Shown: positions 13,792 to 64,000 of the stretch, in pieces
Position numbering within the stretch: position 1 is the first letter of the stretch
Layout of the letters: each line of letters begins with the position of its first letter
Source of the DNA: Allacma fusca
Taxonomy: Eukaryota; Arthropoda; Collembola; Symphypleona; Sminthuridae
Length of the DNA: 64,000 nucleotides
Assembly: GCA_947179485.1 (NCBI GenBank)
Contig: OX359245.1
Location: 9,343,001 to 9,407,000, forward strand
Reading direction: 5' to 3'
Notes under the pieces: model-generated
Seen by the model: only the letters and a program-made list of their open reading frames with translations
What the model was told of the DNA's origin: nothing
Database searches by the model: none
Position numbers and translations under genes: made by a program

Positions 13792-14020
13792 ACTGGGTAC
13801 AGGTAATACTCGGTTAAATGGGTACGGGTACATGTATGGGTACTACCCGGGTACAGAAGTTGCGTACTCGCAAGTACGCGGGTACTACCCGGGTACTCGT
13901 GGGTACAGGTACGGGTATGGGTACTCACTCAGTGACAATCGGGTAGTACCCAATAGATACGGGTATCACTATGTAAAATACCTGTACCCGTGGGTGCTGT
14001 ACCCGAGTATTTTTGGGTAT
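13792..14020. mobile_element. hAT-like end, GTACCC-word array
   Basis: Starts CAGTGCTCGGACTGGG and continues as about 220 bp of GGGTAC and GTACCC words in both orientations. The first 35 bp match the inverted right end of the element at 19960-20882 (GTGCTaggc..GGGTACrGGTAATACTCGG), so this is an end of the same family. No matching right terminus or target duplication was found. The element is truncated or its other end has diverged. It directly abuts the gag-like fossil. Confidence 0.6.
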
Positions 14021-14029
14021 TTCAAGGAT

Positions 14030-15055
14030 TTCTGCTGGGATGGATTACTAGGGCTAACAATAAAATCTTCCAAACGTGGAGATGCTTGTTTCTTTGTATA
14101 CAGATCTATGTATATCGATTCCAACCACTATTGTGCATGCAATTATTCAGGACCAACATATGGAAAGTGGTCATAGCTGTATATCAGAAATTCGTGGTTG
14201 GAATCGAATGAAATGTGATATGGCGATCTCTTAAGACATTTAAAGGAGGTCCATTACTACGAAATTGCAAAAATCCGAAAAAACCGAAAATACCAGGGAA
14301 ATATAAAATTCGGATTTCTGGATTTCCGAGAGCACGGACCCCTATTATAATTATATAAGGAAGCTGTATACCAAATTTCAACAAAGTCGGACCAACTGTT
14401 GCTGAGTTATGGCTATTACCACCATCAAACTTTGCGACTCCCCCAACCTGGGGTAGCGAATTCAGATTTTTTTCACTATTTTTCCGGGCATCCCCTAAGT
14501 ACCGCCTAATAAATTTAGTATGAATTTATATCAAATTCAGAGATGGTGAAATGTTCTGGTTGATTCTATTTGTAAGGTCTCCTATACATTCCCCTATAAA
14601 TACACCAGTTGAGACCTTTAGTCAGTTAAACTTTTATGTCCATCGGTACGTATGAAAACATGTGTCGATGAACTTATCGATGTATTTACAAGCATTGACA
14701 TCATTGGCACTATAGGTATCTTATTGATGTAATTAAATAAAATTTCCCCGAATAATCGTAATTTGTATGCGCACACAAATTTTGAAAACAGTCAAATCAC
14801 GCATGTGGAAGTTTGTGCGACATGTTTCAACCGATATGAGAGACAACTGAATGTGAGCAACAAACGCAATTATTATAGATTAACAACCCGGTTTCTATAA
14901 TTACTACATATGTATTTGGTGTGTTTATACTTGGAAAATTTAATTTTCTGAGGTTAAGGAGATGATTTGATGCCCTTCAAAAATAATAGACTTCTTAAGT
15001 ATTATCCAATTTGACCATGCACAAAATTTGAATTGGTGTATTGGTGATATCAATC
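14030..15055. other. Intergenic, old repeats
   Basis: No gene is supported. The part 14585-14800 is the relative of 7175-7335. The part at 14340-14420 contains ATACCAAATTTCAACAAAG and GAGTTATGGC, a motif style seen in decayed dispersed elements, but no frame is convincing. Confidence 0.4.
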
Positions 15056-15059
15056 ATTG

Positions 15060-15890
15060 TGATTCTCAGAAAATTTATTTCATCCCTAGCTCGAAAATTA
15101 TGGATGCAGGTTTTCAGGAAGTAGAGCTATAAGTCAATCTTCTGTTGGAGAAGGTCTCTTAAAACGTTATTAAATGTTTACTAAAATTTTAAAAATTGTT
15201 TCCACTTGTGACATTGCCTTGTATTGAGTGTAATTGTCGTTCGGAAGAGAGACTACATACAATGAAAATTGTCTACCCCCTCGAGAACTGAATTACAAAA
15301 TTCTGGCAATTCACCTGCTAATTCGTGGGTAGGCAACAGGCGTGGTGTAATTTCGACGCGTTAAAGTCCAACAAAAGGACTTCGTTCAATAATTCATTTT
15401 GTGCTGGTGTTACTTCGAACTTTATTTGACACTTCATGAATTTTATAAATAAGAGTGTCCAATTAAATGTTGAATGTCCCAATTTCTACTAAACGTTGTT
15501 TTAGATGTTCTTTATTATTCTAAAATACTTTGAAAAAATAATTTGAATAATTGTTGATTATGTTTAATAGCCAAATATTGATACCAGCAGGTGTGTAGGG
15601 ACATGAAAAATATCGAAAAGGTTCTGATGCTTCAAATTTTTAAAAACGGTAAATCCTATGAATAATTTTTCCAAAAATGTCAGTCTATCCTAGAATGTTT
15701 AATTGGAATCGACAGTCATATTTGAAGCTAAAAATTTATATATTAAACCTTCATTTTTTCAAAATGAATTGTCAAACGTTTGTGGTATGCCTAATTCCAG
15801 AATTTCTCAAATTTACTTCATTGACCTGGGTCAAGATTCCCGGTCACATGGTCCAGGAACGTGTAGCATGTGGTCATTAGAATGTTAATT
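15060..15890 (+). repeat. Dispersed noncoding repeat R1, copy B
   Basis: Collinear with 27300-28210 over its whole length and with 8690-9150 in its first half. Anchors are AAATTATGGATSCAG, TTGTCGTTCGGAAGAGAG, TTTATTTGACACTTC, AGCCAAATATTGATACCAGC, GGTGTGTAGGGACATGAAAA and CATTGACCTGGGTCAAGATT. The two overlapping open frames at 15677-15888 lie within the repeat and are not conserved as proteins in the other copies. Confidence 0.65.
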
Positions 15891-16143
15891 TCTTATCTCT
15901 ATACCACTGGCCTCCTGCTGGTGTGTGGTAATTTAAAACTGTTTTTGGCGAAACCTGTTTAGCATGTACTTACACAATGCACAGTAGATGGTAGCAGCAC
16001 AAGCACATGCAACCATGCAGAAGTTGAACTGTGCTAATTTAAAACTGCTCGAAACATGTTTTCCATGCCTCATACAATGTACAATATATATCATAAAAAG
16101 AACATGCAACTCATTGGAGAAGCTGGGATGTGTCAGTCCACGC

Positions 16144-17029
16144 TAGTACTCAGACCAGTTCAGTTCAAAACCGAAAAATTCCGATTCGGTTCAGTTCAGT
16201 TCAGTTTGATTCACTATAAATAGAGTTCAGTTCAGCTGTTGAACTGAACTGAACAGTTCAATTCTGTATTTGAATCGAACTGAACCATGTAATGCAAACT
16301 GCAGTTCAAACGGTTTGCAAACAGGCTCCTTGCTGGAAATGTCACCACCAACGTACAGTTTTATCTTTCATTCTCATATATAGTTATTTAACGAATAATG
16401 GACAGTTTATTAATTATTTTATTATTTAACAATTTTTCTTTTAATAATTCCATGGGGCATTGCTATGTTGCTGGACTAAGCTTGGGGCTAAAGAAGTTGC
16501 ATTTCGCATTACTTTCTTTAAAACTTCATCAGCTACTTAAAATTCTGGTTTTATTACGGAGCTGAAAAAATTTAAATTGATACGAATCCTAAGGAAAATG
16601 TAAATACTGAATTCGCCCAAAGCTGCAATGCTAAATGGAAGCAATGGATTACTAAAAGTAGATTCTGAAACAGGGCCATTCCAGAGTACATAACCGTCAT
16701 CATAATTTGTGCATTCTCCAGTGCACTGATTGCTATGGTGAATGCAATTAGGAACAGGTTAAAAGGAAAAAGAAATCAGTTTTTTCTGAAGTTGACTCAA
16801 ATAACTAAATTCGGAGCTCTATATGTGTACATCCGCAATTGTTCTTGTTTACCAAACACTGCGACTGAACTGTTTGATTCACCGATTCAGTTCAGTTCAT
16901 CGGGTGAAACTGAACTGAACTGAACTGTTTTTACTTGAACTGAACCGAAACCGAATTTTCGTTTTGGTTCACTGCTCAAACTGAACTGAACTGCAAATTT
17001 TGAATCGAACTGAACTGTTCCGAGTACTA
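16144..17029. mobile_element. hAT-like element with GTTCA-word ends
   Basis: 886 bp flanked by perfect 8-bp duplications GTCCACGC (16136-16143 and 17030-17037). The termini are inverted: TAGTACTCAGACCAGTTCAG on the left and, reverse-complemented, TAGTACTCGGAACAGTTCAG on the right. Each end continues as an array of GTTCA/TGAAC words (about 16164-16320 and 16880-17020), with both orientations within each end. An 8-bp duplication is the hAT hallmark. The central part is AT-rich and shows no transposase, so the element is non-autonomous. Confidence 0.9.
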
Positions 17030-17039
17030 GTCCACGCTT

Positions 17040-17945
17040 CCCATACAGAAGGTATAATGCAAAAGGAAGTTCGAATCAAAATAATTCACATTTTCAAAAA
17101 TTTCCGTCCAAAAATTTGAATACCCGTACATTAATAAGAAGATTTGAGTGGAAGTCACCGCGAAAGCGCAAACCAGGAATCACGGAAGGGGTCCGAAATA
17201 GGTAATAAACCGAAATTGACGGTTTCTTCAAACATTCCAGGGCAAAATTTTGAAAACAAGAGAAATCAGAAATTAAGAAATCAAATCATACTTTGTATAT
17301 AGAAAAACAACTGTGGGCATCAGGAGGTTTATCAGAAACTCAAATGAAAAACATTCACTAAAGTATTTTTAGGCAGCGTTTTTTCTTGCAATGTACTTCA
17401 AATTTGCATGTTTCAGTATTTTATTCAGTATGTTAACATTTTATAACTTGGCATTAAAATATGTTCAATTTCTCCTAAATAATTTTTCAAGTGCAGTATA
17501 CTGGCAATCACGAACTCAATCTTCGCCTTAATCTTCCATTTTTTGTTACAATATTAAAAACCGACCTGTTAATATATACAGATGTAAATCAGCTCACTCA
17601 AACTAAAACCTATTCAGGGTTTATTGCAATGATTCTAACGTATTTCCGGATTATACGACAAATTAAACCCCAGAAAAGGAAATTACACATTTAAATGTGG
17701 CACTGTTCAGTGCGTCATGGAGTATAATCGTCTTGTATGTTACATTGCTCTCTCGCCTTCAAATATTAAGTAAATTAATCTAATTGGTTGTTAAACAAAA
17801 ATGTCTGGAAAGGTATGGATGATATGGGCTCAGTCCAAAAAATAAGCCTAAAAAAAGGACTTAAACTTAATTATTTATATTTTTTACCAGCAAGAATAGC
17901 AAATTAGATCGATTTGCTCAGTGATTTAGCAAACTTTCTTCCGGA
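17040..17945. other. Intergenic, nothing recognised
   Basis: AT-rich. The open frame at 17491-17694 is short and has no features that I recognise. No terminal repeats or arrays were noticed. Confidence 0.4.
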
Positions 17946-17949
17946 TTTC

Positions 17950-18310
17950 AGAAATTAGAACTACACACAAAAATACACCATATCTGCTTACACGCGAAAA
18001 TGACCCTTACAAAACATATTTCAATTGCTGTCGAACTCTACCTGTTTTCATAAATTGCGGTTACTTAAATTATTCATCCCAATTGTTTGTCTCTACAACC
18101 ATTTTGCACGGGTGCTAAACAAATTTGGTAAATTAGAATTGCACACAAGAACGCATCATGTTTGATTTCAAACGCAGTTGGTTCTCACAAAATATATTTC
18201 AAATGGTGTCGAACTCTATTTATTTTCATAAATTGTGGTTACTTAAAATATTCATCATAATTTTTTGCTTCTGCAAACATTTCGAACAGGTGCTAAACAA
18301 ATTTGGTATG
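17950..18310. repeat. Two-copy tandem duplication, about 179 bp
   Basis: TTAGAACTACACAC (near 17954) recurs as TTAGAATTGCACAC (near 18133). The blocks following both are CAAAAYATATTTCAAWTG, GTCGAACTCTA, TTTTCATAAATTG, GGTTACTTAAA and GGGTGCTAAACAAATTTGGT-like, in the same order. The two copies differ at many positions, so the duplication is not recent. Confidence 0.7.
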
Positions 18311-18866
18311 GCTCCCCTTGTAAATGCGTAATTTGAATTTGATTTGTTTTTCATTATCTGTATGAGGAGGCCATACGTAGATGCTTTTATATACAAAAGT
18401 TTTAATAACGCACCAGCTCCGACACTCATGCAAACAATATTTGTACACTAAGTAGATAGGTGTTAGAAATTGCCTTGTTAATTTCCATATAATTTCAACA
18501 TTTAAATTTACTGCACAAACGAAATCTGTGGCGTGTTATTAAAAAGTATAATAATATAAAATTTAAAATGTTTGTTTAACAATTTAAATATTTTTATTAC
18601 ATTTTGACTATTCTTATAATTTCCCAGAACTGTTGAATTTTATTGACTCACTTGAATCACTGGTAATGGAATTTTCAGGATTTCATTTGAATCTAACATG
18701 ATCACTTAAAGTGTGAAAAATATTGTGACACAAGGTTATTTATATTTCGAATAGTTTACACATAAAGCGATAGTACTTTCTAAAACGTTTCTGAAAACGA
18801 CATCCCACTCTTTCCTTCTAAATATACACCAATTACTATCTATAAGTGTTAGAAATATGGGACCTG
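18310..18866. other. Intergenic, nothing recognised
   Basis: AT-rich DNA with no array, inverted terminal repeat or convincing frame. The minus-strand open frame at 18226-18429 straddles the tandem duplication and is judged spurious. Confidence 0.35.
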
Positions 18867-19887
18867 GGGCCTATTTCACCAAGCGCTCTTCACTCCTCAA
18901 TTTTCACTTTTCATTTGGTTTTGAAAAGTTTTTGTTCCACCATTGCACTTTGCATTTGTCAATTGCAAAATGCAAAGTAGTAACTTTTCACACCGGATTT
19001 TGCAATTTACGTTTCACAATACTCGCCGGGAAAATGCAAAAGTGCAGAGTTTTGCAAATTTCCATGAAATAAATGCAAAGGGTCTCCACGTTTTGCACTT
19101 GGTACATGTAGCATTAAATATAATGTAGTTTCTCAACTTACCCGTACACACATAAACATAAATTGGTTTACTTATTTAAAATTCCAATCTAAACTCCAAC
19201 TAAGTTGACTTTGTGCTCTGAAATTGTGTCATAATAATAAGGTACGTATCATACTACCATTTGTTATTATTGTCGTTATGAATCAAAATGAATCTGCTGT
19301 TTGATAGCAGTGACGAAGTAGATGATGACACTGCGTATACCCTCGGAGTTTACCGAACCCGCATTAACTTTACCATCGAAAAGTTCCGAATGAGATCCTC
19401 CGAAATAGAACATATCCTAGAAAGAGTAGGACCGTTTTAGGGCCAAAACAAATATGAATAATGCAATATCTCCGGAGGAGCAGTTACTAATAGCGTTGCA
19501 CTAGCTGGGTAATGGGGGACAGTATCATGCCGTTGCTGACATGCATGGTATCAGCAAATCAACTGTTTGTCGTGCTGTCAAAAAAAACTACTAAACTACA
19601 ATAGTTTAAACTACTCACCAACCATGATCCAGGATAAAACGAATGATGATAACGAGATCTTCTGGGACTTAGTGAGGCAATATGATATGAGCTTAAATAT
19701 TTCATTGGGTGCTCACCATTGTATGTTTACATTTGATGTTTACCGTTCAAAAATTTGCACTTCTCTATTTTAAATGCAAAGTTGGTGAGTTTGCTTTGAG
19801 ATTTGCTCCGCACTTTTCACTTTGCGTTTATCGCAAAGTGAAAAATGAAAAATGAAAAGTGAAGAGTTGAATTGGTGAAATAGGCGC
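18867..19887. mobile_element. PIF/Harbinger element, internally deleted
   Basis: The left end GGGCCTATTTCACCAA is inverted at the right end as TTGGTGAAATAGGCGC. CTG flanks both sides (18864-18866 and 19888-19890), consistent with the 3-bp duplications of PIF/Harbinger elements. Inside each end there are dense short words of the type TTTTCACTTT and TGCAAA/TTTGCA (18890-19070 and 19770-19870), which can be transposase-binding subterminal repeats. The interior holds a fragment of a HARBI1-like transposase. At 1,021 bp it is far shorter than an autonomous element. Confidence 0.85.
19288..19595 (+). pseudogene. HARBI1-like transposase N-terminal remnant
   Basis: An open segment from ATG 19288 to a stop at 19438-19440 (51 codons) reads into EKFRMRSSEIEHILERVGP. 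A second segment in another frame from 19460 reads ISPEEQLLIAL, then, past an in-frame stop, VADMHGISKSTVCRAV. The motifs ISPEEQLLIAL and HGISKSTV(C/S)R belong to the N-terminal helix-turn-helix part of PIF/Harbinger transposases. The DDE catalytic domain is absent, the reading frame is shifted between the segments, and the protein cannot be functional. It sits inside the Harbinger ends, which fits an internal-deletion derivative. Confidence 0.8.
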
Positions 19888-19959
19888 CTGGTAAAAAATT
19901 ATTAAATGGTGTTAACGCTTACATAATTTAAAAACAGACTTTGAACCTGTTGAGTCCTA

Positions 19960-20882
19960 TCGGCACGGGTACGAAAAATCGGTATCCGTCACGAAGTGCG
20001 GGTATTGCAATATCTGGTATCTATACCCGTACCCATACCCGAGTATCCGGGTACAAATTTTTCATACCCGTACCCGCAATGTAATCTCAAACCTATACCT
20101 GTACCCGCATTGTACCCGAAAATTACTCGAAAGTTCTACCCATACTTGGGTATCACAATGTCCTACCCGTACTCGTACTCGGGTACTTTATATCCAGGTT
20201 TATCTAAATGCAGCGCATAGTACGTTATGTACTATAATATATGACACCTTAGTGTGTAATTTTGACTAGCTAGAGCGTAGTTTGATATTGCATATTTTCA
20301 TTGAAGAGTAGAAAAACTAGAAGCGTATTTGTTTAGAAATAAAGTAAAATTTCATATTTGCAGATTCATCAAAACATTACCAACCGTACATAATTCCGCT
20401 GAATCGTATTCTCCACTTCTATTTTGTTATTATTCTTCGTTTGTGTTTATTAATTTATACTTACTAAAGCATGTTTTCCTAAAAGCATATATTTTAACTA
20501 CACAGTCTAAAATACATTTACTGTATGTTAAGGTTAAAAGAGTATTAAGACTAAGTTATATGTATTCAGAAACACTAAAAATACGGACAAAAGTTCCCAA
20601 CTTTGGCATAAAATTCATCAAAATGTCTCAACTCTCAACGTATCTTCGGGTACGATGGTCGTGGGTACGAGTTAATGACTCGTACCCGTACCCGGTGGGT
20701 ATACACCCATTTTGAAATCCTTGTACCCGTAACCATACCCCTATCCGTACCCGAAATTTTAAGCCGACCAAAGTGTACTCGGGTAGTACCCGAAATTGAT
20801 CGAGTGCACAAACTCGGTACCCGGGTAGTACCCATACCCGTACCCGTTTACCCGAGTATTACCCGTACCCGTGCCTAGCACG
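19960..20882. mobile_element. hAT-like element with GTACCC-word ends
   Basis: 923 bp flanked by perfect 8-bp duplications GAGTCCTA (19952-19959 and 20883-20890). The right terminus, reverse-complemented, is CGTGCTAGGCACGGGTACGG. The left terminus TCGGCACGGGTACG matches it from the fifth base, so the left end seems to have lost about 4-5 bp. Arrays of GTACCC/GGGTAC words fill 19965-20210 and 20640-20875. The middle is AT-rich and noncoding. Same family as 13792-14020 and probably 21363-21598. Confidence 0.9.
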
Positions 20883-20889
20883 GAGTCCT

Positions 20890-21360
20890 ATTCACTCACT
20901 TAAAATAATAAAAACAATTTATGTTTTTATGTGATTCTGACAGGAGCATTCAAAGTACGAAACATGTATTGAGGCGCAATTTTTATTTATTATTTCCAAT
21001 GGTTTACATCCGAAACAATAATAATTTCCTATTAGGCCAATTCCTGAAAACAAACTCCATAACTTCCTTTAATCACTCCTTAACAGTTCGATAAAAGAAG
21101 CCTGGCAGTTTATCTATACGCATCTGCACTCGCGAATCTTGCAAAAAATTGTTGAATGGCATCGACGCTTTGGTAGTTTAAGCACAAATTTTTGAAATTG
21201 TTGAGTGTACATATGAAATGTCGATTTGAAAATGCCCTAACGGGCTAGAACGGCACGCATATTGTAAAATGGCATTTTGGGTATAATATATTTGTGTCAC
21301 TGTGTTATCGAGCTTAATTCAAAGTTCAGTGAAATGCGCTTGGGATTCGGAACTCATTGT
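20890..21360. other. Intergenic, nothing recognised
   Basis: AT-rich flank between two GTACCC-word elements. No frame or array is visible. Confidence 0.35.
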
Positions 21361-21362
21361 GG

Positions 21363-21598
21363 ACCAGTGGGTACAGATACCGTGTACCCGTACCCATACC
21401 CGTACCGATACCCGTACCCGAATATCGGGTACGACAAAATGCTGTATCTATACCCGTACCCATACCTGAATACCCGGGTAAAACATTTAAGTACCCGTAC
21501 CCATACATGAAACAAATTTTCCCGTCCCCGTAATGTACCCAAAACCTGTACCCATACCCGAGTACCTACTGTTTGTACCCGGGTATTACTCGCGTACT
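21363..21598. mobile_element. Small GTACCC-word MITE-like element
   Basis: About 236 bp made almost wholly of GTACCC, CCCGTA and GGGTAC words. The left edge is CCAGTGGGTACAGATACC. The right edge, reverse-complemented, is CCAGTACGCGAGTAATACCC. An 8-bp flanking duplication was not found, so the ends are approximate or mutated. The open frames across it (21277-21542, both strands) are translation of the array. Confidence 0.6.
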
Positions 21599-21599
21599 G

Positions 21600-22400
21600 G
21601 AAGTTTAGCCGTTTGAAGATTCCCAGTCATTTGCCTTCCCAGCTGAAAATGTCCAATTTGTCAATTTTTTGATCTCTTATTTCTATTATTATGTCGAATC
21701 TCGGTAAGTTTATCAACATAAAGTATAATTAATTGCTTTAAAACCTAAAACCATTCCGACATTGTTGCAGAAATTTGGAAGGGGTAGTAAAATTACCCTA
21801 TTTATTTTTAGTAAAATATCCTCTTTTCTGTCGAGACGAAATAATTGGAGAGATGAATAAATAAAAATAGCTCCGAGAATAATATTTACGGAACCTAGCT
21901 TGCCAAACAACGCATCTTTCAGTTATTAATTTCTGGTGGGTACACTTCGTGAATTCTGATTTTATTTTAACTTAAAATGCGTCCACCAGAGTGTCCAATT
22001 AAAATTTGAATGACCCAATTTCTACAAATTGCTATTTACAAGTTCCTTATTATTCTACATGAGCTTTTAATTTTAATTTTTGCTTATATTCGATTGTCAA
22101 ATCTTCAAAACCAAAAAGAGGCTGTGGGAAAACAATTTTTATAAGAAGTGTTGATTTTTATTTTCTACATATTTCTGTGATTTCCTGAATGTTCAATCGA
22201 TTTCTTAAATGAGATTTTTCAATATTAAAATTCTAATTAATTAGCAAACCGCCAATTTCCAATTTATATTCCATTTATTAATTTCTTATTATGTAGCAGG
22301 CATTTTGTTTAATTTGAATGTACAGGATAACCATCATCATTTGCCCCCTAGCCAGCATAAGGGAGTGAAAAATAATTCGTTACCAAATCTTGTTGGAAAT
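21600..22400. other. Intergenic with R1-related fragment
   Basis: The segment 21930-22060 (ACACTTCGTGAATT, then AGAGTGTCCAATTAAA, then CCCAATTTCTAC) matches the central block of R1 copy B near 15430-15500. Nothing else is recognised. Confidence 0.45.
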
Positions 22401-23787: not shown

Positions 23788-26165
23788 CAGGAGAACCTCG
23801 ATGCAACGGATTTCCAGGAGACCGATAAAATTTGTCCACTATAAAAAATGCCCGTTGTATGCATATAACGGATAAAATCCATTATATAATTTTTAAAATT
23901 ACAAACAAGGCTGATTATTCATACTGACTTAATTTCTTCAAATTAGAACATGACTAATAAACTAACTACTACATGAAAACACCAGACTAATATTATAATT
24001 GTTCAAGTAGAAACGTCGAATTGACTAAATATAGAAGTACAATACAGTAAATTTCCCATATAGTGGTTTCCTCTTAGATGGCATTTCCTCTTTAGTGGCA
24101 TCAAAAAACCCTCCCTAGAGGTTGGCAATGTTAAAGGTATACTATATACTGGCACCCGCTATAATGGTATTCCCTCTATAATGGCACCATTATGTGTTTC
24201 GGTGGCTCGGCCATGCAAAATTATAATAGCAGTTGGCATAAAATTAGCTAGTTAATGGTATAACACGGTGTTATAAAACGTGCGGGAGGTAAATAATGTT
24301 TGTGTCGATTGGTTCAATTTTAATTCTAAATGTTACTGCATACCATGAAATTCTTATTGTGGTATACTGAAGCTCTAGTATTATTAGCTGAAGTTACGTA
24401 ATAGTATCATTGACTTAAAAGGTAAAACGAACAGTCACACAACAAAGCATTGGAATTTTTACCTTGGCCCACTTCTAATAAGTTTCAATATGTTATTTAT
24501 TTTTTAAAGTAATTTAAACGTTTTCCATAATCTGAAGCCAAAATTCGGTGTCTGGAAGGACGCTGTATTATTTTGATGATGTTTTGGAAAGTGTACATGC
24601 CATAAAAATGTGGATTTCTTCGCAAGTAGCTCCGACCAATCGGTCTGGAATGGTGACCTTGCAGTTGAAAAGTTTGCTACTACTTACAATATTACCAGTG
24701 TGAGGGTATCTATGTATATTTACTGAATATTTTAAACTTACTGACCTTTGCATACCTCATAGTTTCACGCATTCTGTACAAATAAGTTATTTTATAAATA
24801 TATTTAGCCAGTTATTAGTTATAAACATTAATAGTATAGAGTTAGCCATTAATACCATATAGTGGCATCTCTATATAGTGGCAGGAATTTGCCACTCCCT
24901 TGGAAACCACTATATAGGAAATTCACTGTACAGCTGGATTTTAAGTCTCAATCGAATCAAAAAACCGATTTGCGATTCAATTTGCCGCAAAGCAAATTAT
25001 TTCGATTCGGTTCACTCAGTGAATCTACTTGAACCATCAATCAAACTGTTCAAGTTCAAGCTGTAAAATACAAAACTTTCCTGATGTTACTTTAATGTCA
25101 TTATGTATAACCATACATATTATAAAGAGTATAGTAAAACCTACGAAAAAATAACAAACGTTGTGGTATACTTACATAGTATTTATACTTTGAATATGCA
25201 AGGAAAATGTACCGGTTGTCAGCAAGAAATAATTTTGAAGGTTAATAAAATTTAATTGAGCAAGATTTCACTCATAATTAGAAGACAAGGATTCTAAAAT
25301 CCATGCTTGCCGACGGCTGCTAAATACCATAAAAATATAATTGAGAGATCTTCAACATGTACTACAAGTACGAAAATTTAGGGACCAACAAAAGCGGGGT
25401 TTTTTGAAGATTTTCAATTACAGGAAAAACTTGATATAACGGATGGCTCTACTATTTACTATTTAGTTACATCGAACACATATGTTTATCCCAGCAAGGC
25501 TCCCCGCATGCATACAGCAGACATTTTTATACCTATTAGTTATAACGGACACACTTTGGAGACCTTCGCAAACATTTTTCATGCACATAACGGATTTTAA
25601 CCGGCAAAAATAGTCTATTGGCTAGTTTAGATTAGTTTAGATTTATATGTTGCAATTTGTTCTTAGTGATAAAACTTTCGAAATATCAAACTGAAAGTGT
25701 TTAAAATTCAGAGACAAATTATATACTAGTTTTTAATATTCAAAGTGAGAGCTCTCAAACCCCATTACATATGCAAAGATCTTCATTCACAGTAAATGAT
25801 ATTTGAAAGAAAGTTTTAAAATTATGACCTACAAATTCATCCAAATGCTAAAACAGTACGGTCATGTGAATTTCCGCTGAACTTTCTGGATTGCATCAGC
25901 AAACAATCACTAAGATTCAGAAATTGTCGAATTGTAATTGTTGTGCTTCTATATTTAATCAATTCGATGCTTCTACAGTTGCTTAATTATTAATTATTAG
26001 TCAGGCGTTTACAAGTTTTATTTCGATTAAATTAAATTGATGCATAACCAGGCTTGGTTGTCATTTTGGAAATAAAATAAGGGACTTTATCCGTTATATG
26101 CATACAACGGCCACTTTTTGTAGCTGACAGATTTTACCGGTCCCCTAAGAATCGAGTTTTTCCTG
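23788..26165. mobile_element. pogo/Tigger-like element, non-autonomous
   Basis: 2,378 bp between TA dinucleotides (23786-23787 and 26166-26167). About 90 bp of inverted terminal repeat is seen: CAGGAGAACCTCGATGCAAC on the left against CAGGAAAAACTCGATTCTTA on the right (reverse-complemented), then GGACCGRTAAAATYTGTC and GTTGTATGCATATAACGG in both. TA duplications and CAGG..ACCTCG..AACGG ends are typical of the pogo/Tigger branch of Tc1/mariner. No transposase frame remains. A second element (24045-24928) is inserted inside. Confidence 0.85.
24045..24928. mobile_element. TA-flanked CAGTGAATTTCC element, nested
   Basis: 884 bp between TA dinucleotides (24043-24044 and 24929-24930). Its left end CAGTAAATTTCCCATATAGT is inverted on the right as ACTATATAGGAAATTCACTG. 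Internal short motifs TATAATGGTATTCCCTCTAT and ATAGTGGCAGGAATTTGCCA are further terminal-like repeats. It is the same family as 32321-33585 and its two paralogues, but lacks the solo LTR those contain. Pogo-like, non-autonomous, younger than the element at 23788-26165 that it interrupts. Confidence 0.85.
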
Positions 26166-32308: not shown

Positions 32309-32320
32309 TACCAAGTCATA

Positions 32321-50543: not shown

Positions 50544-50940
50544 TATTCACAGTGCTGGATTAACGAATGTATTTTTGACGAAGTTATTAACCGATATTTA
50601 GTGTTCTTACTATTAGTTGTCGATTGTAAGAGCGATTTGTGAAATGTTACAATAGCGTTGGCCACATTAATAACGATTCGCGGGAATTTTATAAGTATTG
50701 GCATAATTGTCTGGGTGTATTTTCAAGCTCGTTTTACTGTAAGTTACGTTCCAGCAACTGCCAATTTCATTGGTTGGGCCAAAAACACTGGCAAACTGGG
50801 AAGTTTTGAGCTGACAAGCATGCTTTGGAGGAGCCCATTATATTGAGCGCCATTCAAGTTTTAACGGCTCAGCTCTTATGTGAAGATCCACAATGAGCTT
50901 TAAATCACACCCAATCATTAACTGTATTTGTTGATTTTAA
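50544..50940. promoter_or_regulatory. Divergent spacer between transposase and BEN gene
   Basis: About 400 bp separate the transposase start codon on the minus strand from the first supported BEN-gene exon on the plus strand. It probably holds both promoters and perhaps an upstream non-coding exon. No TATA box or initiator was securely identified. This is an inference from gene orientation only. Confidence 0.35.
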
Positions 50941-52462
50941 TTGACTGGAAAATCTACAAAAATCGCCTTTTCTCAATACTTTCTCGTGTTATGGCAAAAA
51001 AAGTACTCTTGTGTCGGTCGTGCTTGCATCGTTGATGAAAATTTGAGAAAAGAAAACGATGAAAACCTTATTGAAAGGGGCGAAATGAAAATCACGTTTA
51101 ATCGCAAGGTTTACACTGGAAAAATTATCTTTGGTGGTAAGTAAATATTTGTATTTCGCTATAATTTTATATGACTTGCGTTAACGTATGTTTACCTCAG
51201 AACCAGAACTATTTAGGTATTGGGTTTATAATAAATTAACTAGCAGTTTGAGTTCGTAAAGTATCTAACATCGTAATTTGCTATACACGTATGGTAATTC
51301 AGGTTCTACCCCCAAAGCTGTAAATAAGTACCAAACGAAATTCGACCGGAATGAAGCACCATTGAATAATCCGATTGAGCCTGCGTTGGAACCTCAATCA
51401 GTGAGTTGAATGAAGTATTGTATCAAAATAATTTTTAAACAAGACTTATTTTATGTAATTGTTAATTTAATCATTTGTAATTTAGAAAAATCGTAAGATG
51501 AAGTGTAATGACATTGAAGCAACCATTTCTGAGGTCATTGAAACAGTTGAGATGAGGAATCTTTCCGAAAATGTGAACATCTCACGAAACACTGACGAAC
51601 GTGTCGATTCGAACAATTTGGAAAATAATGTCAAGAAATTGGAGAAAAAATTGAAAAAGGCGAACGCAAACATTGCAAATCTGAAGCTGGAGCTTGAACA
51701 AGAAAAGGCTCTTCGAGAAAAATACAAATGTAAGTATATTATTGATACTTAAATGTATATTACGTAAATTGCCAATTTTAAAATATGTGCCTCAATATAT
51801 TTGTATGCAAATAAACTGTAATACTTTATGAAATATTATTACTACAGCTAAATGCAAACATTTACGGAAGAAACTAGACTTTCCAGCAAGATGAAACAGT
51901 AAGCTCTTGTTTTCTCAAAACGTTAATAGGTATTTAGTGTTATCAACGTGTACGTTTTTTAGTAAACATTTTATGCACAGGTCATGGTAGACATTGGGAA
52001 TGGAGTGAAGCTGAATGCGGCTTTACTTGATCGGGCAAAGATTTTTTCTTCGTCACCAGCTGTTTTGGGTCGAAATGTATTCCGACTTGCCTTCACAGAG
52101 TCCGAGATTGTTGGCAGATCTTTGTTTGGTCGCATATGTAACGCGAATAAGCATCTTCCAGCTAAACCTTCTGTCGACTCTTCGAAGCGCGATGCTGTTA
52201 TTCGTGAATTAAAGCTTTATATTATTAAACAGAAACAAGCATTGTTTGGAACCCGCCAGCTAATTTCTAAAATATGTAATATGAGTAAATGTTTGTTGCA
52301 GGATATTGCATTTCTGTCGTTGAAGAAGAATGTGTGCATTCTGGCTTAAAATTCGACAAAGTTTCAGTTCGAAGTAAAATATCCAAATCTCTTGGAGAGT
52401 ACATCCGGGAAATATCTCACAAATGTCATCAACTGGAGCATGATTCAGAGGCCGATGCCTAG
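50941..52462 (+). pseudogene. Coiled-coil/BEN-domain protein gene in CACTA element
   Basis: Exons inferred from GT-AG borders and phase: from about 50941 (upstream start unclear) to 51136, reading YFLVLWQ, then KVYTGKIIFGG; 51303-51400; 51486-51729, a strong coiled coil (NNVKKLEKKLKKANANIANL, KLELEQEKALREKYKC); 51848-51898; and 51981 onward. The last holds a BEN-like domain (VMVDIGNGVKLNAALLDRAK, FRLAFTESEIVGRSLFGR, KPSVDSSKRDAVIRE). The end 52302-52462 reads SKISKSLGEYIREISHKCHQ to a TAG, with AATAAA at 52511. A one-base shift in the 51848-51898 exon and an unresolved frame change before 52302 make the gene look non-functional. BEN domains bind DNA, so a transposon-end-binding helper role is plausible but inferred. 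Confidence 0.75.
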
Positions 52463-52664
52463 AATAACTTTGTATTACTTATACTATTGTTCTACAAATT
52501 GCAAAAAAATAATAAACTAAAATTAATACTATATATTTTTCTGTTCAAACCGATTATTATTTAGTGTTTTACAATTTATTTACAGATTATATGATAAATT
52601 TGCAACAATTAGGAAATATTTAATTATTAATAATGTGAATCCAATCGTTTATACGTAACCTTGC

Positions 52665-52760
52665 ATAATTAATTATGCATAATTGAATCATAAACTTTTC
52701 TGCATACGAAAGCGTCCCAAAATTATGCATAAAAAGTTTGGCAAATTATGCAGACTTCGT
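52665..52760. repeat. TGCATAATT subterminal word cluster
   Basis: The words TTGCATAATTAATTATGCAT, AATTATGCATAA and AAATTATGCAGAC, and a variant CTGCATACG, are clustered in both orientations just beyond the BEN gene. CACTA elements carry such subterminal repeats as binding sites for their DNA-binding helper protein. Assignment to this element is by position. Confidence 0.5.
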
Positions 52761-52779
52761 TGTACATAACTATGTAGCG

Positions 52780-53335
52780 AGATTTTGGACCGGGAATTGT
52801 GTTTCCTTCCTAACCAAACCGCTATAAATTAAACATACAATGCCGTCGTTACAAAAATATTTATTTTAAATGAAAAATACAGTTACAAGATTGACTGGTT
52901 TCTTCCTGAGATTCAATTTCAAACACTAACCCCACATTGCCATCTGAAGGTGTATAAGAACATGTTTATTTATTCTTTTTCGTCGGGAAAACTTGACATT
53001 AAATGTTTTGTTGCAATTTTTACATTTTACTCTTGCCTAATCGTTCACTAGTATTTATTTTAAAGTTTAACCGCAAAACATCTCGTTTTCTTTGATTTCT
53101 TCAATTCTGACATTTTGTTTAGGTAATGCGGTAAGTAAATAAGCTTACGACAAGACCAAATAAAAACTATGCCTGATTACAATGTTAATTTAATTAATTT
53201 TTCTATTCTCTTACAATCTTAAAATGGAATTTTAAATTCTAAACCGATTATAATTGAGATGGCAAGTATATAATTCATTTTGTTTGTCATGGAATTTTTT
53301 TTATCAAGTTGCGTGTAAATGCATCTTACATAAAC
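52780..53335. other. Intergenic, nothing recognised
   Basis: AT-rich flank of the CACTA element. No gene, array or terminal repeat is seen. Confidence 0.35.
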
Positions 53336-55541: not shown

Positions 55542-55910
55542 CAGGGGTCGGATTTTTGTAAATCTCCCTGGAAGATTATTTCTGAATTTCCCTGCTGACT
55601 ATTATCTCCCTGCTGGTAGATCCTCAACGATTTCAAAAATCCCTGCTGAGAAAAAGGTCAACGATTTTCAAAATCCCTGTTGGCAAAAAAAATCCCTTAC
55701 AAGACGTGAAATCCCTGCCAAATTTGGCCAATCAAGCCAAAAATCCCTGAAACCCGTCAACAAATTTGAAAATCCCTGCCAAGAAAAGGTCAACGATTTT
55801 AAAAATCCCTGTTCATAAAAATATATCCCTTCCGGTTGAGATTTTCCCTGCCAGAAATATTTTTTCCCTGGGAAGATTCTTCCCGTCTTCCTACAAAAAT
55901 CCGACCCCTG
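55542..55910. mobile_element. hAT-like MITE with AATCCCTG words, copy 1
   Basis: 369 bp flanked by perfect 8-bp duplications CTTGGACA (55534-55541 and 55911-55918). The 19-bp terminal repeat CAGGGGTCGGATTTTTGTA is perfect in inverted orientation. The interior is about ten words of AATCCCTG-type (AAAATCCCTGCTGA, AAAATCCCTGTTGG, AAATCCCTGCCAA and similar) joined by GGTCAACGATTTT. No coding content beyond translated array. Confidence 0.92.
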
Positions 55911-57370: not shown

Positions 57371-58047
57371 TCAGTGCTGCGGACAAGTTCAAGGAATACT
57401 TGAGTTTTCAAGTCAAGTTCAAGTCCAGGTCAAGTTCAAGTAGGTCATATTTTGTACTTGAATCATTCATGTCAAGTTCAAGTACGTACTAAGCTTGACC
57501 ATGACATTCTAAGACAAGTCAGGTTCAAGTACAAGTAGGACAAATTTACTTGAACCTCAAGTCAAGTTCAGGGTCAAGTAATGGAAAGAAAAAACTTGAC
57601 CATGAACTTGAGATTTCATGGTCAAGTTCAAGTATCTTTAGATGGCACATGCGATAAAGAACGGAAGCAATTTAAAAATCCCAATCCAACTTCATGTTAT
57701 GTTCAGGGTATTTTGTTTCAGAAATTAAGTCCATTTGATGAAGGATTTGTTTGCCTGACGTTGCTCATTGTTAGTTTTTGCAGCGGCCTATCCATGAAAT
57801 GAAAGAATTAACTCGATAATTCATGTTGTTGCTTATAATTATGAGTTTCAACTTCAACTTGTTTAAAGAACTTCCAGTATAAAATGAGCTTGGATGGTCC
57901 TTTACAAAAAGCATTTAATAAACAAGTAAATACTAGTTTACTTTATTATTAAGTTAAGAGTACTGGTAATGCTCAAATAGGTATATGTATATATACATAT
58001 ATGAACATTAAATAAAACTTGACACCATGTAATGCTCGTCAGATATA

Positions 58048-58204
58048 CAGTGAAAGTCCGTTATAAGAGTTCAGCTTATAAGGAATGTATCGATATCAGA
58101 AATGAATTCGTTTGACCCCAACTTTCATTTACACAAAGCTTTAGACGTCCTTATAAGGGAAATCCCTTTATAAATTGTACAGTCCCTTATATCGGACTTT
58201 TACA
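58048..58204. mobile_element. Small pogo-like MITE
   Basis: About 157 bp after TA. Its left end CAGTGAAAGTCCGTTATAAG is mirrored on the right as CTTATATCGGACTTTTACA, with inner CCTTATAAGGGAAATCCCTT. The right tip is degraded. It is inserted in the hAT-like element. Confidence 0.65.
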
Positions 58205-59207
58205 TTATTCGGAATACGCACAAGGATGTCCTCAAAGGGTTTTAAATAAAAATAGCAATTAGTCAAAGTGTTTTCTGAATAGGTTTGGTTTTCAGTCTGA
58301 CAGAAATGATTTGCGGATGCAAGTTCAACAAACTATTGTAGGTATATTTCATTTCTTGTGATACTTAACTTGAATTATCAAGTTCAAGTCAGGTTCAAGT
58401 CATGGTCAACTCACGTTTGGAACTGTGACTACTTGATCAAGTTCGGATCTTAGAAAATTTACTTGATTACTTGAACTTGGTAATTGTAATTGTTTGGTAA
58501 TTGTTTTTATTTGGGGTCCTCTAGGCTTTCCCCCATGACCCGATAATAATTCAAACAAAATTTTTACAATTCGTTATATGATTCTCATATAAGTTAATAT
58601 GTGTAATTGTCAGTACTAATTGTAGATTATACATGATGTATGTATATGATTTTATAGTTAACAATAGTTTCTAAGGAATTCGCTCCTTCCAAGGAAGTTC
58701 ACAGATATACATAGATAGGTTTAGATATTTTCTCTCTATTTGCTTGGTAAGGCCACTCTGTACGAAGTGTGTGCGTTTAATCCAATCATTTTGTTTGAAT
58801 GCATGAGGCAGTGTAGAGTCATGTTCTAAAGTATTTAACTGTCGGGTTTTGTATATGCACTTTGGGAATGTTGCCACCAAATTCTTGCCTGCTTATTTCA
58901 CTTGCTTGTACAAAGGCCCAATATGCACATTTCGGATATCTGGAATTTTCCGTTTCACGAATTTGAGTTATGTATAGCAGTCATAGCCCAGCGATACCCA
59001 ATTGGTATGCAGTTGACCAGTCTCTAGTCTCACAATGTATTCGGGAGTTCGTGCACACATACGCAGAATTACTTTGAGGTAGAGCTGTAGAATGTTTTCA
59101 ATCTCTCTGTAAACTATTTATTAATCTAGTTATTTTGGCATATTAGATTTGCATGATTGGATATTCATATTCTCACAAATGCAAGTACACGCCAACAACA
59201 ATGCATA

Positions 59208-59540
59208 TCATATGTTATTTATAAAACATTGCATTTTATGGGAAGCTTCTATGCACATTTTCAAAACTTTATTGCTGGTTTCATATTTTACATTGGCATA
59301 GTGTGCCAGCTCAACTAAATTCACAAGGTGGGATTTAGACAAATTTGTCTCACTTTTGAACCGAAGGCAGATCCAGAAACCATGACTACAGCAGTTATGT
59401 TTTGCATTTAAATTGGTGACCTGCCTGGTGGTTCCTCTGATGGTAATAGGTTTCCAGTCGATGTCCTTGAAGTCTAATGTGTATGTGAGTTGAGCCCCAC
59501 TTTCGTGCGTAATGTACATTTTCTCAAAACGTATCTTCAT
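59208..59540 (-). CDS. Hypothetical protein beside ORF1-like frame
   Basis: A 110-residue open frame whose ATG immediately follows the stop codon of the upstream ORF1-like frame (59541-60122), as in a compact bicistronic arrangement. It reads MKIRFEKMYITHESGAQLTY and has two Cys in CCSHGFW. I recognise no domain. It may be the downstream part of the same decayed transcript unit. An isolated chance frame is possible. Confidence 0.3.
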   Translation of the reverse strand: MKIRFEKMYITHESGAQLTYTLDFKDIDWKPITIRGTTRQVTNLNAKHNCCSHGFWICLRFKSETNLSKSHLVNLVELAHYANVKYETSNKVLKMCIEASHKMQCFINNI

Positions 59541-60122
59541 CTACACCAATGGGTCAATAAGTTTTAATTCTCTTGCCTTTTCTGCTAATTTGCGTTGCAC
59601 TTTAATTTCGCGAGGAGTCTTTTCAGCATTTATATAAATGCCTTTCAGAGTCGGGTTGTCTTTGTGAGTAAATTTCGCAGTAAGAATAGCAACTTTTCCC
59701 CTAGCATAGGCACGGGTGACACTGATTGGTCTCGATTTTCCGATAAATTTCCTTCCAATTCGCCTAACAGTATCAATATTCACTCCTGGAAGTTCAAGCT
59801 CACTAAAGATATTTACCACATTTTTCTCAAGGTTTTTAAAGGGCTTTTGAATATCTTCAGGTACTCCAAAAATAACTATAGATTTTTCATTTGCCTTTCT
59901 TTGCATGAATTCCAGGCGGGTCTCCAATGCGTCAATTTTTTGTTGGTGATCTGACAGTTTCTGGCTTATCACGGTATCCAGTTTATGAGACAGTCCTTCA
60001 ATCAAAAATTTGAGATCGTCTAATGTGACAGTCATGTTTCTTGATTTTTTACTCGGATTTGTCGAATTGGGCTGATTAATTGATTTTTCAGGCGTTAAAC
60101 TCAACTCTCTTTTATTTGTCAT
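59541..60122 (-). CDS. L1 ORF1p-like coiled-coil/RRM protein
   Basis: 193 residues starting MTNKRELSLTPEKSINQPNS. A basic, disordered N-terminus is followed by a coiled coil at about residues 35-78 (LIEGLSHKLDTVISQKL, then ALETRLEFMQRKA). Next comes an RRM-like part with SIVIFGVPEDIQKPF, DTVRRIGRKFIGKSRPISV, KVAIL and GIYINAEKTPREIKVQRKL. This order and the RRIG..RP(I/V), KVAIL and GI.IN..TP.EI signatures are those of L1-type ORF1 RNA-binding proteins common in LINEs. No endonuclease or reverse transcriptase follows. The frame is intact, yet it lies inside a hAT-like element, as captured cargo or a LINE fragment inserted there. Confidence 0.65.
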   Translation of the reverse strand: MTNKRELSLTPEKSINQPNSTNPSKKSRNMTVTLDDLKFLIEGLSHKLDTVISQKLSDHQQKIDALETRLEFMQRKANEKSIVIFGVPEDIQKPFKNLEKNVVNIFSELELPGVNIDTVRRIGRKFIGKSRPISVTRAYARGKVAILTAKFTHKDNPTLKGIYINAEKTPREIKVQRKLAEKARELKLIDPLV

Positions 60123-60419
60123 TTAAATGAACTACAGACCACTATGTTGTACTGCTTATACTGCAAGCATAATTATTAAAGCTACACAAATGCACGGTTG
60201 AGGAAATGTGTCGAAGGAGCAGCTTTCAATGCGACTATCCGCGTCAATGGTCAGTGGGAAAAACAAATCGATTACTTGAACTTGACAAGTCAAGTAATTA
60301 CATGAACGCCAGTTATCAAGTTTAGGTTGCGTCTTGAAAATTACTTGAAGTTTCGTGGTCAAGTCAAGTTCATGGTCAAGCTTTCAAATTACTTGACCCG
60401 ATCGCAGCACTGATTGTAA

Positions 60420-62670: not shown

Positions 62671-62671
62671 G

Positions 62672-62930
62672 AGCTGCTTTCAGGTATCAAAAAATCAGTG
62701 TCCGCACCTGAACCCGACCCGTACCTGAAATTTCAGGTAAACATTTTCTTTGACAGTCGGATCCGGGCAAATACTTTACTTGTCAGGTATTTTTCGTCGG
62801 GTAAAACTAGAATACCCGTACCTGAAAAATTACCTGAAGTTCGGATCTGATGTAAACCCGACCTGAACCTGACCCAAACCTGAACCCGCACTTGACTTTC
62901 AGGTATTTCAAGCGACTGAATGCTAATATT
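62672..62930. mobile_element. hAT-like end with CAGGT/ACCTGA words
   Basis: Starts CAGAGCTGCTTTCAGGTA and continues as ACCTGA, CCCGACC and TCAGGT words in both orientations. The start resembles the CAGAGCTGCG tip of the CAAGT-word family. The right limit (about CAAGCGACTG at 62925) and a target duplication were not confirmed. The minus-strand frames are translated array. Confidence 0.55.
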
Positions 62931-63264
62931 ATTGATAGCTCTAAAAGTTTGAGCAAACGGACTAAAAATACAGGTGAATTTATCAGTCTCACCACAGTAA
63001 GTGAAATGGCTGCACGCTGCTGATTTCTTCATTGTCTTATGGCCTTGCCTTCAGTCATCTTGACTTTGATTTAATTCTTTAATGTCTTCGGCTAATTCTT
63101 CACTCATGTTGAAAACTTAGTTTCTTTTTAAACACTTAAAGTTCATGATAATTACATCTAAATTATTACTTACTTCTAAACAACCAATAAGAAACCGTTG
63201 AAATCTCATCGATAATTACCGATGGTTGACGCTTTGCTAAACACTTCGGTATTTGACCTCACTG

Positions 63265-63633
63265 CAGGGATTGGATTTTCGTAAACCTTCCTAGGAGATC
63301 CTTTCTGAACTTTCCTGCTGAATCTTATGTCACTGCAGGAACGTCCTCAACGATTTAAAAAATCGCTGTTGGTAAAAATAATATCCCTACAAGACTTGAC
63401 GTCTTGTAGGGATATTATTCATATCAAATAAGTTTAACCAAATCTAAAAATCCGTTTTTACAACAAATTTTCCTGAAACAAGCCAACGAATTAGAAAATC
63501 CCTGCCAAAATAAGGTCAACGAATTTTAAAATCCCTGTTCTCAAAACAATCCTTTCCTTTTAAAATTTTTGCTGTCAGAAATATTTTTTCCTGTGAAGAA
63601 AATTCCCATCTTCCCACAAAAATCCGACCCTTA
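63265..63633. mobile_element. hAT-like MITE with AATCCCTG words, copy 2
   Basis: 369 bp, the same length as copy 1 (55542-55910). Termini are CAGGGATTGGATTTTCGTA on the left and, reverse-complemented, TAAGGGTCGGATTTTTGTG. The flanks CCTCACTG and CCACCCTG agree at six of eight positions, consistent with an aged 8-bp duplication. It contains a 15-bp perfect inverted repeat (ATATCCCTACAAGAC and its complement around TTGAC, near 63385-63420) that copy 1 lacks. Confidence 0.85.
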
Positions 63634-63739
63634 CCACCCTGTTCTTCCCAACTAATTTTAAGTGCCCTTAGAAATATTGCATGCAGAATGAAAGGCTTCA
63701 TTCACGTGAAGTTAGAATTTTATTCGCGGAAATAAACAC

Positions 63740-63910
63740 CTGCAAGTTACCTGAAATGTCAAGTTCGGGTTCAGGTATTTCATATACTGAGACCCGAACT
63801 TGTACCTGATAAAGTGTTCAGGTATTTTGTTTTTACCCGAACTTGACGGTAACCCGACCTGAATTGTCAGGTGCGGACCTTGCAACTACCCGCACTCGAC
63901 CCGAGAATTG
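63740..63910. repeat. CAGGT/GAACTTG word array
   Basis: Words TTACCTGAAATGTCAAGTTC, CCCGAACTTG, TCAGGTATTT and TCAGGTGCGGACC in both orientations. The outer edges TGCAAGTTACCTGAAATGTC and, reverse-complemented, TGCAAGGTCCGCACCTGAC look loosely inverted. It may be the partner end of 62672-62930 or a separate small element. Confidence 0.5.
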
Positions 63911-63922
63911 GGTACTTTATTT

Positions 63923-64000
63923 TAACCAGGGTCGGGAATTCGAATTCGAATCGGAATTAGAATCGGAATTATATTCAAACAATTCGGGTATCCGAATCCA
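63923..64000. mobile_element. hAT-like end with GAATTCG words, cut by window edge
   Basis: CAGGGTCGGGAATTCGAATT followed by GAATTCG/CGAATC/GGAATTA words up to the last base. The tip resembles the CAGGGGTCGG tip of the AATCCCTG family, but the word is new. Only the left end lies in the window. Confidence 0.5.

Follow-up and report, generated by a model that had tools for sequence, protein, structure and literature searches.

How does a hAT transposase find the element that belongs to it? These enzymes must pick their own ends out among many relatives, and to our knowledge it is little understood how the specificity of their BED fingers changes. The locus analysed here, a window of 64,000 nucleotides from Allacma fusca (contig OX359245.1), puts the question in a concrete form. 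A preliminary description saw in it a set of hAT-like families, each with its own short-word array behind a similar tip, and took the word for an address; the observation was confirmed in part, and its interpretation is partly supported. We consider it likely that the elements (Table 1) are nonautonomous hAT DNA transposons, Ds- or MITE-like, with family words that serve as transposase binding sites and have drifted stepwise. The nonautonomous hAT reading is based on the hAT-type ends together with the fact that no transposase was seen. The families number at least five, and probably eight or more.

Table 1. Elements, arrays and fragments in the window, in order of position.
Feature	Coordinates	Strand	Characteristics
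GTACCC-family end fragment	13784–14030	-	79% identity over 116 bp to E2 right end, reverse strand
E1	16144–17029		word CAGTTC/GAACTG; exact TSD GTCCACGC; tip TAGTACTCRGA
E2	19960–20882		word CGGGTA/TACCCG; TSD GAGTCCTA, 9-bp match with next T
E3	21367–21605		GTACCC words from end to end; no TSD found
E4	29055–29493		word CGGGAC/GTCCCG; exact TSD CTTCACAG; tip TAKGKCTTCTAC
E5 copy A	31366–32308		word CGGATA/TATCCG; tip TAAGGTTCTCAACGGAT; TSD on the right side only
E13	33590–37149		AACTTG/ACCCGAAC words at both ends (33590–33720, 37010–37149); no TSD
E9	33970–34110	+	weak TGGTCTGG cluster, one end only; no tip TSD
E10	34980–35815		left word CGAGTA/TACTCG (GTACTCG); right array led by AAGTAC/GTACTT; no TSD
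E5 copy B	37150–38086		GGATCGGATA element; exact TSD TACCAAGT both sides
E5 copy C	42928–43864		GGATCGGATA element; exact TSD TACCAAGT both sides
E6	43954–44969		word ACTTGA/TCAAGT; exact TSD CTTGGAGG; tip YAGNGCTGCG
E8	55542–55910		word TCCCTG/CAGGGA (AATCCCTG); exact TSD CTTGGACA; perfect tip CAGGGGTCGGATTTTTGTA
E7	57372–60412		word ACTTGA/TCAAGT; exact TSD ATTGTAAT; tip CAGTGCTGCG
E11	62697–63875		both ends with ACCTGA/TCAGGT arrays; tips CARKGTCCGCACC; no tip TSD
Decayed E8 copy	63265–63632		79–83% identity; nested in E11
E12	63930–64000		GAATTCG cluster, cut by window end

Exact 8-bp duplications beside inverted YA tips (TIR matches at least 10/14) were found at eight sites, against a mean of 0.6 in 20 Markov simulations. 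With these tip criteria, exact duplications of 6, 7, 8, 9 and 10 bp numbered 17, 3, 8, 0 and 0, respectively, and without them 146, 55, 28, 8 and 10; since the excess is unclear without the tip condition, the 8-bp excess is apparent with hAT-type tips only. Seven of the eight sites are word-array elements, carrying five words. Two sites are copies in one tandem array and one (23866) has no word array, so that six are independent. The match at 23866–26096 was set aside; it lies within a longer inverted repeat (23816–23935 / 26029–26146). The claim of at least five families with 8-bp duplications is borne out by E1, E4, E5, E6/E7 and E8, in which the duplications are exact and the tips inverted. 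GTACCC (E2) is a sixth word with an exact duplication, GAGTCCTA(T) being present on both sides; the duplication described for this element is real, but its tips are unequal, the left one (TCGGCACGGG) being shorter than the right one (CGTGCTAGGCACGGG). The E5 copy at 31366, also described as duplicated, lacks the left duplication, other sequence adjoining its left tip, and the copies at 37150 and 42928 are those that have both. E6 interrupts one unit of the tandem array, and the empty site of this insertion is kept in two others (copies A and B).

The 12 tips of the six TSD-confirmed elements, not fully independent because these elements come from five families, have Y1, A2 and T7 in 12/12 and G3 and G5 in 9/12 each. 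The hAT tip pattern is Y-A-G-N-G, and the duplication pattern of Ac-type hATs is nTnnnnAn; here T stands at position 2 in 5/6 duplications and A at position 7 in 2/6.

A scan without a word list detected 32 word arrays in the window. The described elements or their relatives hold 28, eight of which are E5 and E10 repeats in tandem copies B and C; about 20 remain when the tandem copies are counted once. The other four belong to non-hAT transposon-like sequence: one Harbinger-like element, two MITEs of the TA type, and a place near another possible transposon. The words are based on k-mer counts, an EM motif finder applied to the ends having been abandoned because its motifs came out diffuse. 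Every TSD-confirmed element has the same word at both ends or, in the case of E8, throughout. As a rule about 6–21 copies per end are present within 150–300 bp, in either orientation. The first scored word is 7–42 bp from the tip (12–28 bp at 11/14 ends), and the inner limit of the words is 150–300 bp from the tips in five of the seven elements measured (E1, E2, E4, E5 and E6). The 2-kb flanks contain 0–4 words in six of the seven; the 13 words beside E2 are due to the GTACCC arrays in its neighbourhood. The described plan of tip, array and core is found in most elements, except that in E8 words run from end to end without a separate core and that E7, which carries internal ORFs without family assignment, has an additional internal CAAGT array (about 58301–58540). 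E6 and E7 have tip and word in common and differ in the core. Overall, the distances between words of the same orientation have a period near 10.5 bp, a value chosen for testing after inspection of the spectrum, whose strongest peak is 6.0; the helical phasing is partial, being found in 4/8 families against random placement and in 2/8 against spacing shuffles.

What is the relation among the words? In a word-by-family matrix each of eight words is most frequent in its own family, which rules out a single word common to all families; the one strong overlap is TACTCG, with 12 occurrences in GTACCC arrays versus 13 in its own. The families had been called unrelated-looking. For the words such a view has to be given up, as they are mutually more alike than matched random words (0/2000 random sets were as alike), and some arrays are mixtures of words. 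Given the kinship of the words and the mixtures in some arrays, a word that drifted is a better fit than a word that was exchanged; the hAT-like identity and the constant plan with a changing word are themselves upheld by the duplications, the tips, the blind-scan arrays and the matrix. Chance as the source of duplications, arrays and word likeness was ruled out by the simulation, the blind scan and the random-word test. A natural, evolving address code, in which the words of sister hAT families within one genome make up a ladder with small rungs, arrays that mix neighbouring words are intermediates and BED fingers change to match, is possible, though we would put its chances somewhat below even. 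Within it, the ladder might tentatively run GTACCCG – GTACTCG – GTACTTGA – GAACTTGA – ACCTGA, with TATCCG and GTCCCG nearby.

Several arrays have no confirmed duplication. GTACTCG, TGGTCTGG and CAGGT, previously listed as probable duplicated families, show no 8-bp tip duplication within one mismatch, and neither does the GTACCC array at 21367; a few one-mismatch 8-bp matches around these four lie away from the tips. A search for TSDs at the tips of E3, E9, E10, E11 and E13 found none. The GTACCC-family end fragment has no partner end, its 8-bp matches being one-mismatch only and without inverted tips, and the decayed E8 copy has no TSD within one mismatch. The array of the latter is under the blind-scan threshold, as are the clusters of E9 (TGGTCTGG) and E12 (GAATTCG). 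The word of E13 is a relative of CAAGT; E13 is repeated in the array copies and was not flagged separately by the blind scan. The segment 34105–34192 is a 94% copy of part of the E10 left end.

Neither a hAT transposase nor a BED domain came up when the translated stretches were scanned with Pfam, and the superfamily assignment is accordingly drawn from the ends. The scans covered nine ORFs and, with X in place of every stop, translations in six frames for 48400–53290, 57372–60412 and 32309–37149, in plus frames for 16144–21610 and minus frames for 16844–20887, in plus frames only for 18860–19900, 3900–6800 and 43954–44969, and in minus frames only for 12000–14100; the rest of the window, including E4, E5 and E8, lies outside this coverage apart from the nine ORFs. 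Missing transposase domains are expected in nonautonomous copies. Two matches under the curated cut-offs, EzrA (coiled coil, 0.0032) on ORF 59544–60122 and Flu_M2 (0.013) at 48.5 kb, were taken as chance, and two ORFs compared with the PDB gave a best match of only E 0.19. In viral contigs, the tip patterns of E5, E6/E7, E1 and E4 and a CAAGT run had no match. The E8 tip had three there, apparently in one same gene and with 0–1 TCCCTG in 700 bp. A GTACCC tetramer occurred in 87 viral stretches; the 80 listed have the word in nearly a single orientation (the rarer one at most twice), and the stretches are probably viral coding repeats. Two patterns had no match in bacterial and archaeal genome contigs.

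In the mechanism that we favour, the short hAT-type tip (near YAGNGYT) would be the place where the transposase cuts and joins, and the family-specific word of 5–7 bp is a candidate site for the BED finger of the matching transposase. Many sites close to each tip may collect the multimeric enzyme; the word would determine which enzyme mobilises which element, and the core would be dispensable filler. During the separation of families the words would have diverged in small steps, rather than being swapped as blocks.

The arrays might instead have arisen neutrally at the ends of transposons, through replication slippage and unequal exchange, with words that are simple-sequence expansions and have no protein partner. 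Short tandem units do occur in several arrays, as do internal tandem duplications of 6–41 bp, and arrays are present in other transposon types too. However, both orientations and a similar stop distance from the tip are found in most elements (each half of E8 has a single orientation), an element has matching words at its two ends, E6 and E7 match each other in their words, and words of different families resemble one another; we regard this explanation as unlikely.

Very unlikely, in our estimate, is that the words are read not by transposases but by proteins of the host, be they silencers, transcription factors, chromatin factors or parts of a system directed at CpG, while the elements persist by recruitment or escape. 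Observed/expected CpG is raised in the ends of four of seven elements (E5 2.32, E2 1.46, E4 1.35, E6 1.34; window 0.95), and hAT-derived host proteins with diverse motifs are described in the cited part of PMC8097297. Yet the ends of E1 (0.97), E7 (0.67) and E8 (0.69) have no such enrichment, and the position of the words beside the cutting tips and their difference by family would be left unexplained. Duplications of about 8 bp are also made by P-like and KDZ/Zisupton elements, and one could imagine such another superfamily with THAP or other fingers as readers, to which we give hardly any credence. The lack of a visible transposase in the translated stretches would suit it, but the tips match the hAT pattern Y-A-G-N-G with A2 and T7 invariant. 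Multiple transposase sites in the ends are also reported for Galileo of the P superfamily (PMC3688188, cited part), whereas word arrays close to the tips suit Ac-type hATs (PMC3260210, cited part).

We thus read the words as putative transposase binding sites that have drifted stepwise. The plan of tips and subterminal words is already known; the kinship of the words could show how the enzymes change the DNA that they read. In a genome with many sister families and dense, readable words, words could be paired with proteins and a recognition code tested; such a genome could also account for the escape of new hAT families from cross-mobilisation and for the way in which hAT-derived transcription factors came by different motifs. 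Were the address code true, the code of BED fingers would be readable straight from a genome.

The address idea is plausible and in principle not new, because published hATs read different subterminal words; the comparisons below refer to the cited portions of the respective papers. That subterminal repeats are known in hATs such as Ac/Ds was correctly stated in the preliminary description: maize Ac has subterminal AAACGG repeats and needs ends of ~200 bp (PMC3260210). The present elements resemble Ac/Ds in their 8-bp duplications, short tips, multi-word ends of ~200 bp and filler cores like those of Ds (PMC3260210). They differ in that Ac/Ds has one family word, whereas at least five duplicated words occur here in one locus, with no autonomous element seen. 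Among CGGBP-type hATs, mainly hAT-19, the DNA-binding domains of one group read many motifs, most with CGG, and for the four hAT proteins the motifs have matches in the subterminal parts of the respective transposons (PMC8097297). Distinct motifs within one group are thus a common trait, and CGG is contained in three of our eight words; in contrast, five of the eight are without CGG, although words of the CGGBP/hAT-19 group would be expected to have CGG or CGC in most cases, and protein specificities were measured there while the evidence here is on the DNA side. Herves, a hAT of Anopheles gambiae, has the motif CG/AATTCAT, and its study states that hAT binding sites vary from element to element (PMC3143072). 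A short motif near both ends, bound by the element's own transposase, is the likeness (PMC3143072); binding was demonstrated in vitro for Herves, whereas our words are known from DNA ends, and the large set of sister families described here is without counterpart in the cited part of the Herves report (PMC3143072). Hermes has 17 and 14 BED-finger sites AAG(T/C) in its two ends, densest near the tips, with BED bound at bp 11–27 and ~220 bp of each end required (PMC10368747). Its word is shorter and its two ends are arranged asymmetrically (PMC10368747). Hermes kept about 70% of its activity when two of the deeper BED sites in its left end were mutated (PMC10368747), so that some words may be dispensable. 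The first words here, 12–28 bp from the tip at 11/14 ends, may be set beside the BED at bp 11–27 in Hermes, and the inner limit of the arrays, at 150–300 bp, is comparable to the ~200 bp of Ac and the ~220 bp of Hermes.

The word arrays of these hAT-like elements (Table) are family-specific. When 160-bp windows were scanned blind for enriched 6-mers (log10 p < -7; the best of 10 simulated windows reached -6.75), 32 arrays emerged, 28 of which lie within the described elements or their relatives; eight of the 28 are the E5 and E10 arrays repeated in tandem copies B and C. The other four, at 18901, 24761, 52581 and 58041, belong to transposon-like sequence other than these elements. The same word stands at both ends of the elements with confirmed target duplications, in two registers in E4 and as a single continuous array in E8. 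Measured to the nearest tip, the inner limit of the words is 150 bp in E4, 200 bp in E1, 250 bp in E2 and E5, and 300 bp in E6; words run along the entire 369 bp of E8, and 13 of the 43 in E7 lie more than 300 bp from the tips (11 of them more than 600 bp), their source being an extra internal array. The first scored word begins 7-42 bp from the tip, and 12-28 bp from it at 11 of 14 ends. The 2-kb flanks hold 1 (E1), 13 (E2), 1 (E4), 4 (E5), 1 (E6), 3 (E7) and 0 (E8) words, the 13 of E2 being due to neighbouring GTACCC arrays, and the background of the eight main words outside arrays is 0.16-0.84 per kb. In a word-by-family count that is descriptive, since the element ends were set after the sequence was read, every main word peaks in the family it belongs to; the peak counts range from 11 (TCCCTG) to 53 copies (ACTTGA). 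TACTCG overlaps most clearly, since GTACCC arrays hold 12 copies against 13 in the arrays of its own family; ACTTGA, ACCTGA, CGGGTA and CGGATA show lesser counts (2-5) in other families. In four of seven elements (E2, E4, E5 copy B and E6) the word-array ends have an elevated CpG observed/expected ratio, the highest value being 2.32 in E5 ends versus 0.95 for the window.

Table. Positions of word-array elements and other transposon-like features in the window.
Feature	Position	Strand	Remark
E1, GTTCA element	16144-17029
E2, GTACCC element	19960-20882
E4, GTCCCG element	29055-29493
E5, CGGATA element, copies A/B/C	31366-32308 / 37150-38086 / 42928-43864
E10, GTACTCG element	34980-35815
E6, CAAGT element	43954-44969		within array copy C
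E8, CCCTG element	55542-55910
E7, CAAGT element	57372-60412
E11, CAGGT element	62697-63875
Harbinger-like element	18868-19890		TGCAAA words
Two related TA-flanked MITEs	24035-24935, 32313-33205		ends like CAGTRAATTTCC; ~80% identical
ORFs	48516-49316, 49244-49576	-	within 48516-52820
ORF	51966-52346	+	within 48516-52820
TATGCA words	52581-52820
ORFs	59544-60122, 59211-59540	-	in E7; no family assigned
MITE-like stretch, CTTATA words	~58041-58220		in E7
Extra internal CAAGT array	58301-58540		in E7

Exact duplications flanking inverted tips were searched for independently of the preliminary description, which had claimed 8-bp target duplications. With YA tips, at least 10/14 TIR matches and a span of 150-4000 bp, the window gave 145, 50, 17, 3, 8, 0 and 0 duplications of length 4 to 10, respectively. 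Over lengths 4 to 7 the counts fall as chance predicts, and length 8 stands out, with 8 matches versus a mean of 0.6 in Markov-simulated sequence (20 runs). After dropping the YA condition, lengths 5 to 10 gave 488, 146, 55, 28, 8 and 10, and hence no clear excess at 8. Seven of the eight matches are word-array elements (E1, E4, E5 copies B and C, E6, E7 and E8), copies B and C belonging to a single tandem array; the eighth, at 23866, lies within a longer inverted repeat. This repeat (23816-26146) consists of two arms of ~120 bp with 81% identity that enclose 2.2 kb; both arms contain TATGCATA, and the repeat is not a word-array element. In the GTACCC family, GAGTCCTA(T) flanks both sides of E2, but the left tip is shorter than the right. 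A search allowing one mismatch found no duplication at the GTACTCG, CAGGT or TGGTCTGG tips, nor at those of the GTACCC array at 21367, the 33590-37140 pair or the decayed E8 copy at 63265.

The families had been described as unrelated-looking, which does not apply to their words. The eight words of the blind scan (CAGTTC, CGGGTA, CGGGAC, CGGATA, ACTTGA, CAGGGA, CGAGTA and ACCTGA) have a mean best-aligned mismatch of 0.364, versus 0.492 for letter-permuted words (1 of 2000 as low) and 0.489 for random window 6-mers matched in GC and CpG (0 of 2000). The nearest-neighbour version is weaker (0.179 versus 0.290, p 0.0175), and p stays at or below 0.006 whichever word is omitted (500 draws); from the words of the four non-hAT arrays the eight lie at a mean distance of 0.554. 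How did the words come to be alike? Their likeness and the mixing of neighbouring words in some arrays both favour a stepwise drift away from shared ancestors. Such likeness could also come from binding domains or host constraints that are related, or from common ancestry of the ends.

Distances between words of the same orientation peak at about 6 bp, which is the word unit, and again at about 10.5 bp. The total score at period 10.5 was reached by none of 1000 random placements (p 0.004 versus shuffled spacings), a test in which the weight of the GTACCC arrays is inflated because they are partly mutual copies. The period holds against random placement for GTACCC, GTCCCG, CGGATA and CCCTG, holds against shuffled spacings for GTACCC and GTCCCG only, and fails in the GTTCA, CAAGT, GTACTCG and CAGGT families. 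This is a hint that some arrays are phased on one helix face.

In region 31366-48514 a 5.78-kb unit is repeated in tandem; copies A, B and the partial C are 99.3-100% identical. The empty site of E6 is kept in copies A and B, with a single CTTGGAGG in each (within 32386-32397 and 38164-38175). Since B and C are 99.97-100% identical when E6 is excluded, the array most likely already existed when E6 inserted. The left edge of the array is the exact first base of E5, a hAT-like tip, and copy A of E5 lacks the left duplication, with both present in copies B and C. The 8 bases left of this tip (TCACTCAG) occur three more times in the window, never at an E5 end. For maize Ac, tandem duplications as well as reciprocal deletions are reported in which a transposon tip forms one of the breakpoints; in the dhAT duplications of that study, one flank of the second element has no matching duplication (PMC3744419). 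Here, in contrast, it is the outermost element that lacks one, so that a tip-adjacent deletion seems to explain the array edge better than a reversed-ends duplication. The array overall looks like the product of such a deletion or of another aberrant hAT transposition.

The window, on which the analysis draws together with the literature, is AT-rich, contains no N and holds other transposon-like sequence. Its transposons suggest a eukaryotic, animal-like source. Pfam gave HTH_23 (5e-4) and HTH_Tnp_4 (0.012) in the Harbinger-like element, both below curated cut-offs. In region 48516-52820 the array edge near 48514 may have truncated a different transposon; Pfam returned nothing convincing there, and a resemblance to Tnp2-like transposases is tentative. 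Pfam found no hAT, BED or related domain in the ORFs and masked translations scanned, which cover parts of the window, and the word-array elements are therefore called nonautonomous; their ends point to the hAT superfamily.

By analogy, these elements most likely work like known hATs, whose transposases read subterminal repeats with a BED finger. That of Hermes recognises AAG(T/C) and, at the left end, was bound to bp 11-27 (PMC10368747). CG/AATTCAT is the motif that Herves binds at its two ends, and the authors of that study point out site differences among hATs (PMC3143072); Ac requires ~200 bp with AAACGG repeats at each end (PMC3260210). The motifs of CGGBP-type hAT domains are diverse, and all four hAT proteins yielding motifs have matches in subterminal regions (PMC8097297). 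We infer that the words here have a protein partner whose specificity has drifted: they would gather a multimeric transposase beside the cutting tip and set specificity. Among the matches listed in a literature search thin on subscription papers and without Repbase, none described a single locus with numerous sister hAT families whose words are related. The kind of element is already known; the window adds further members of it, and the ladder of words is a novel reading.
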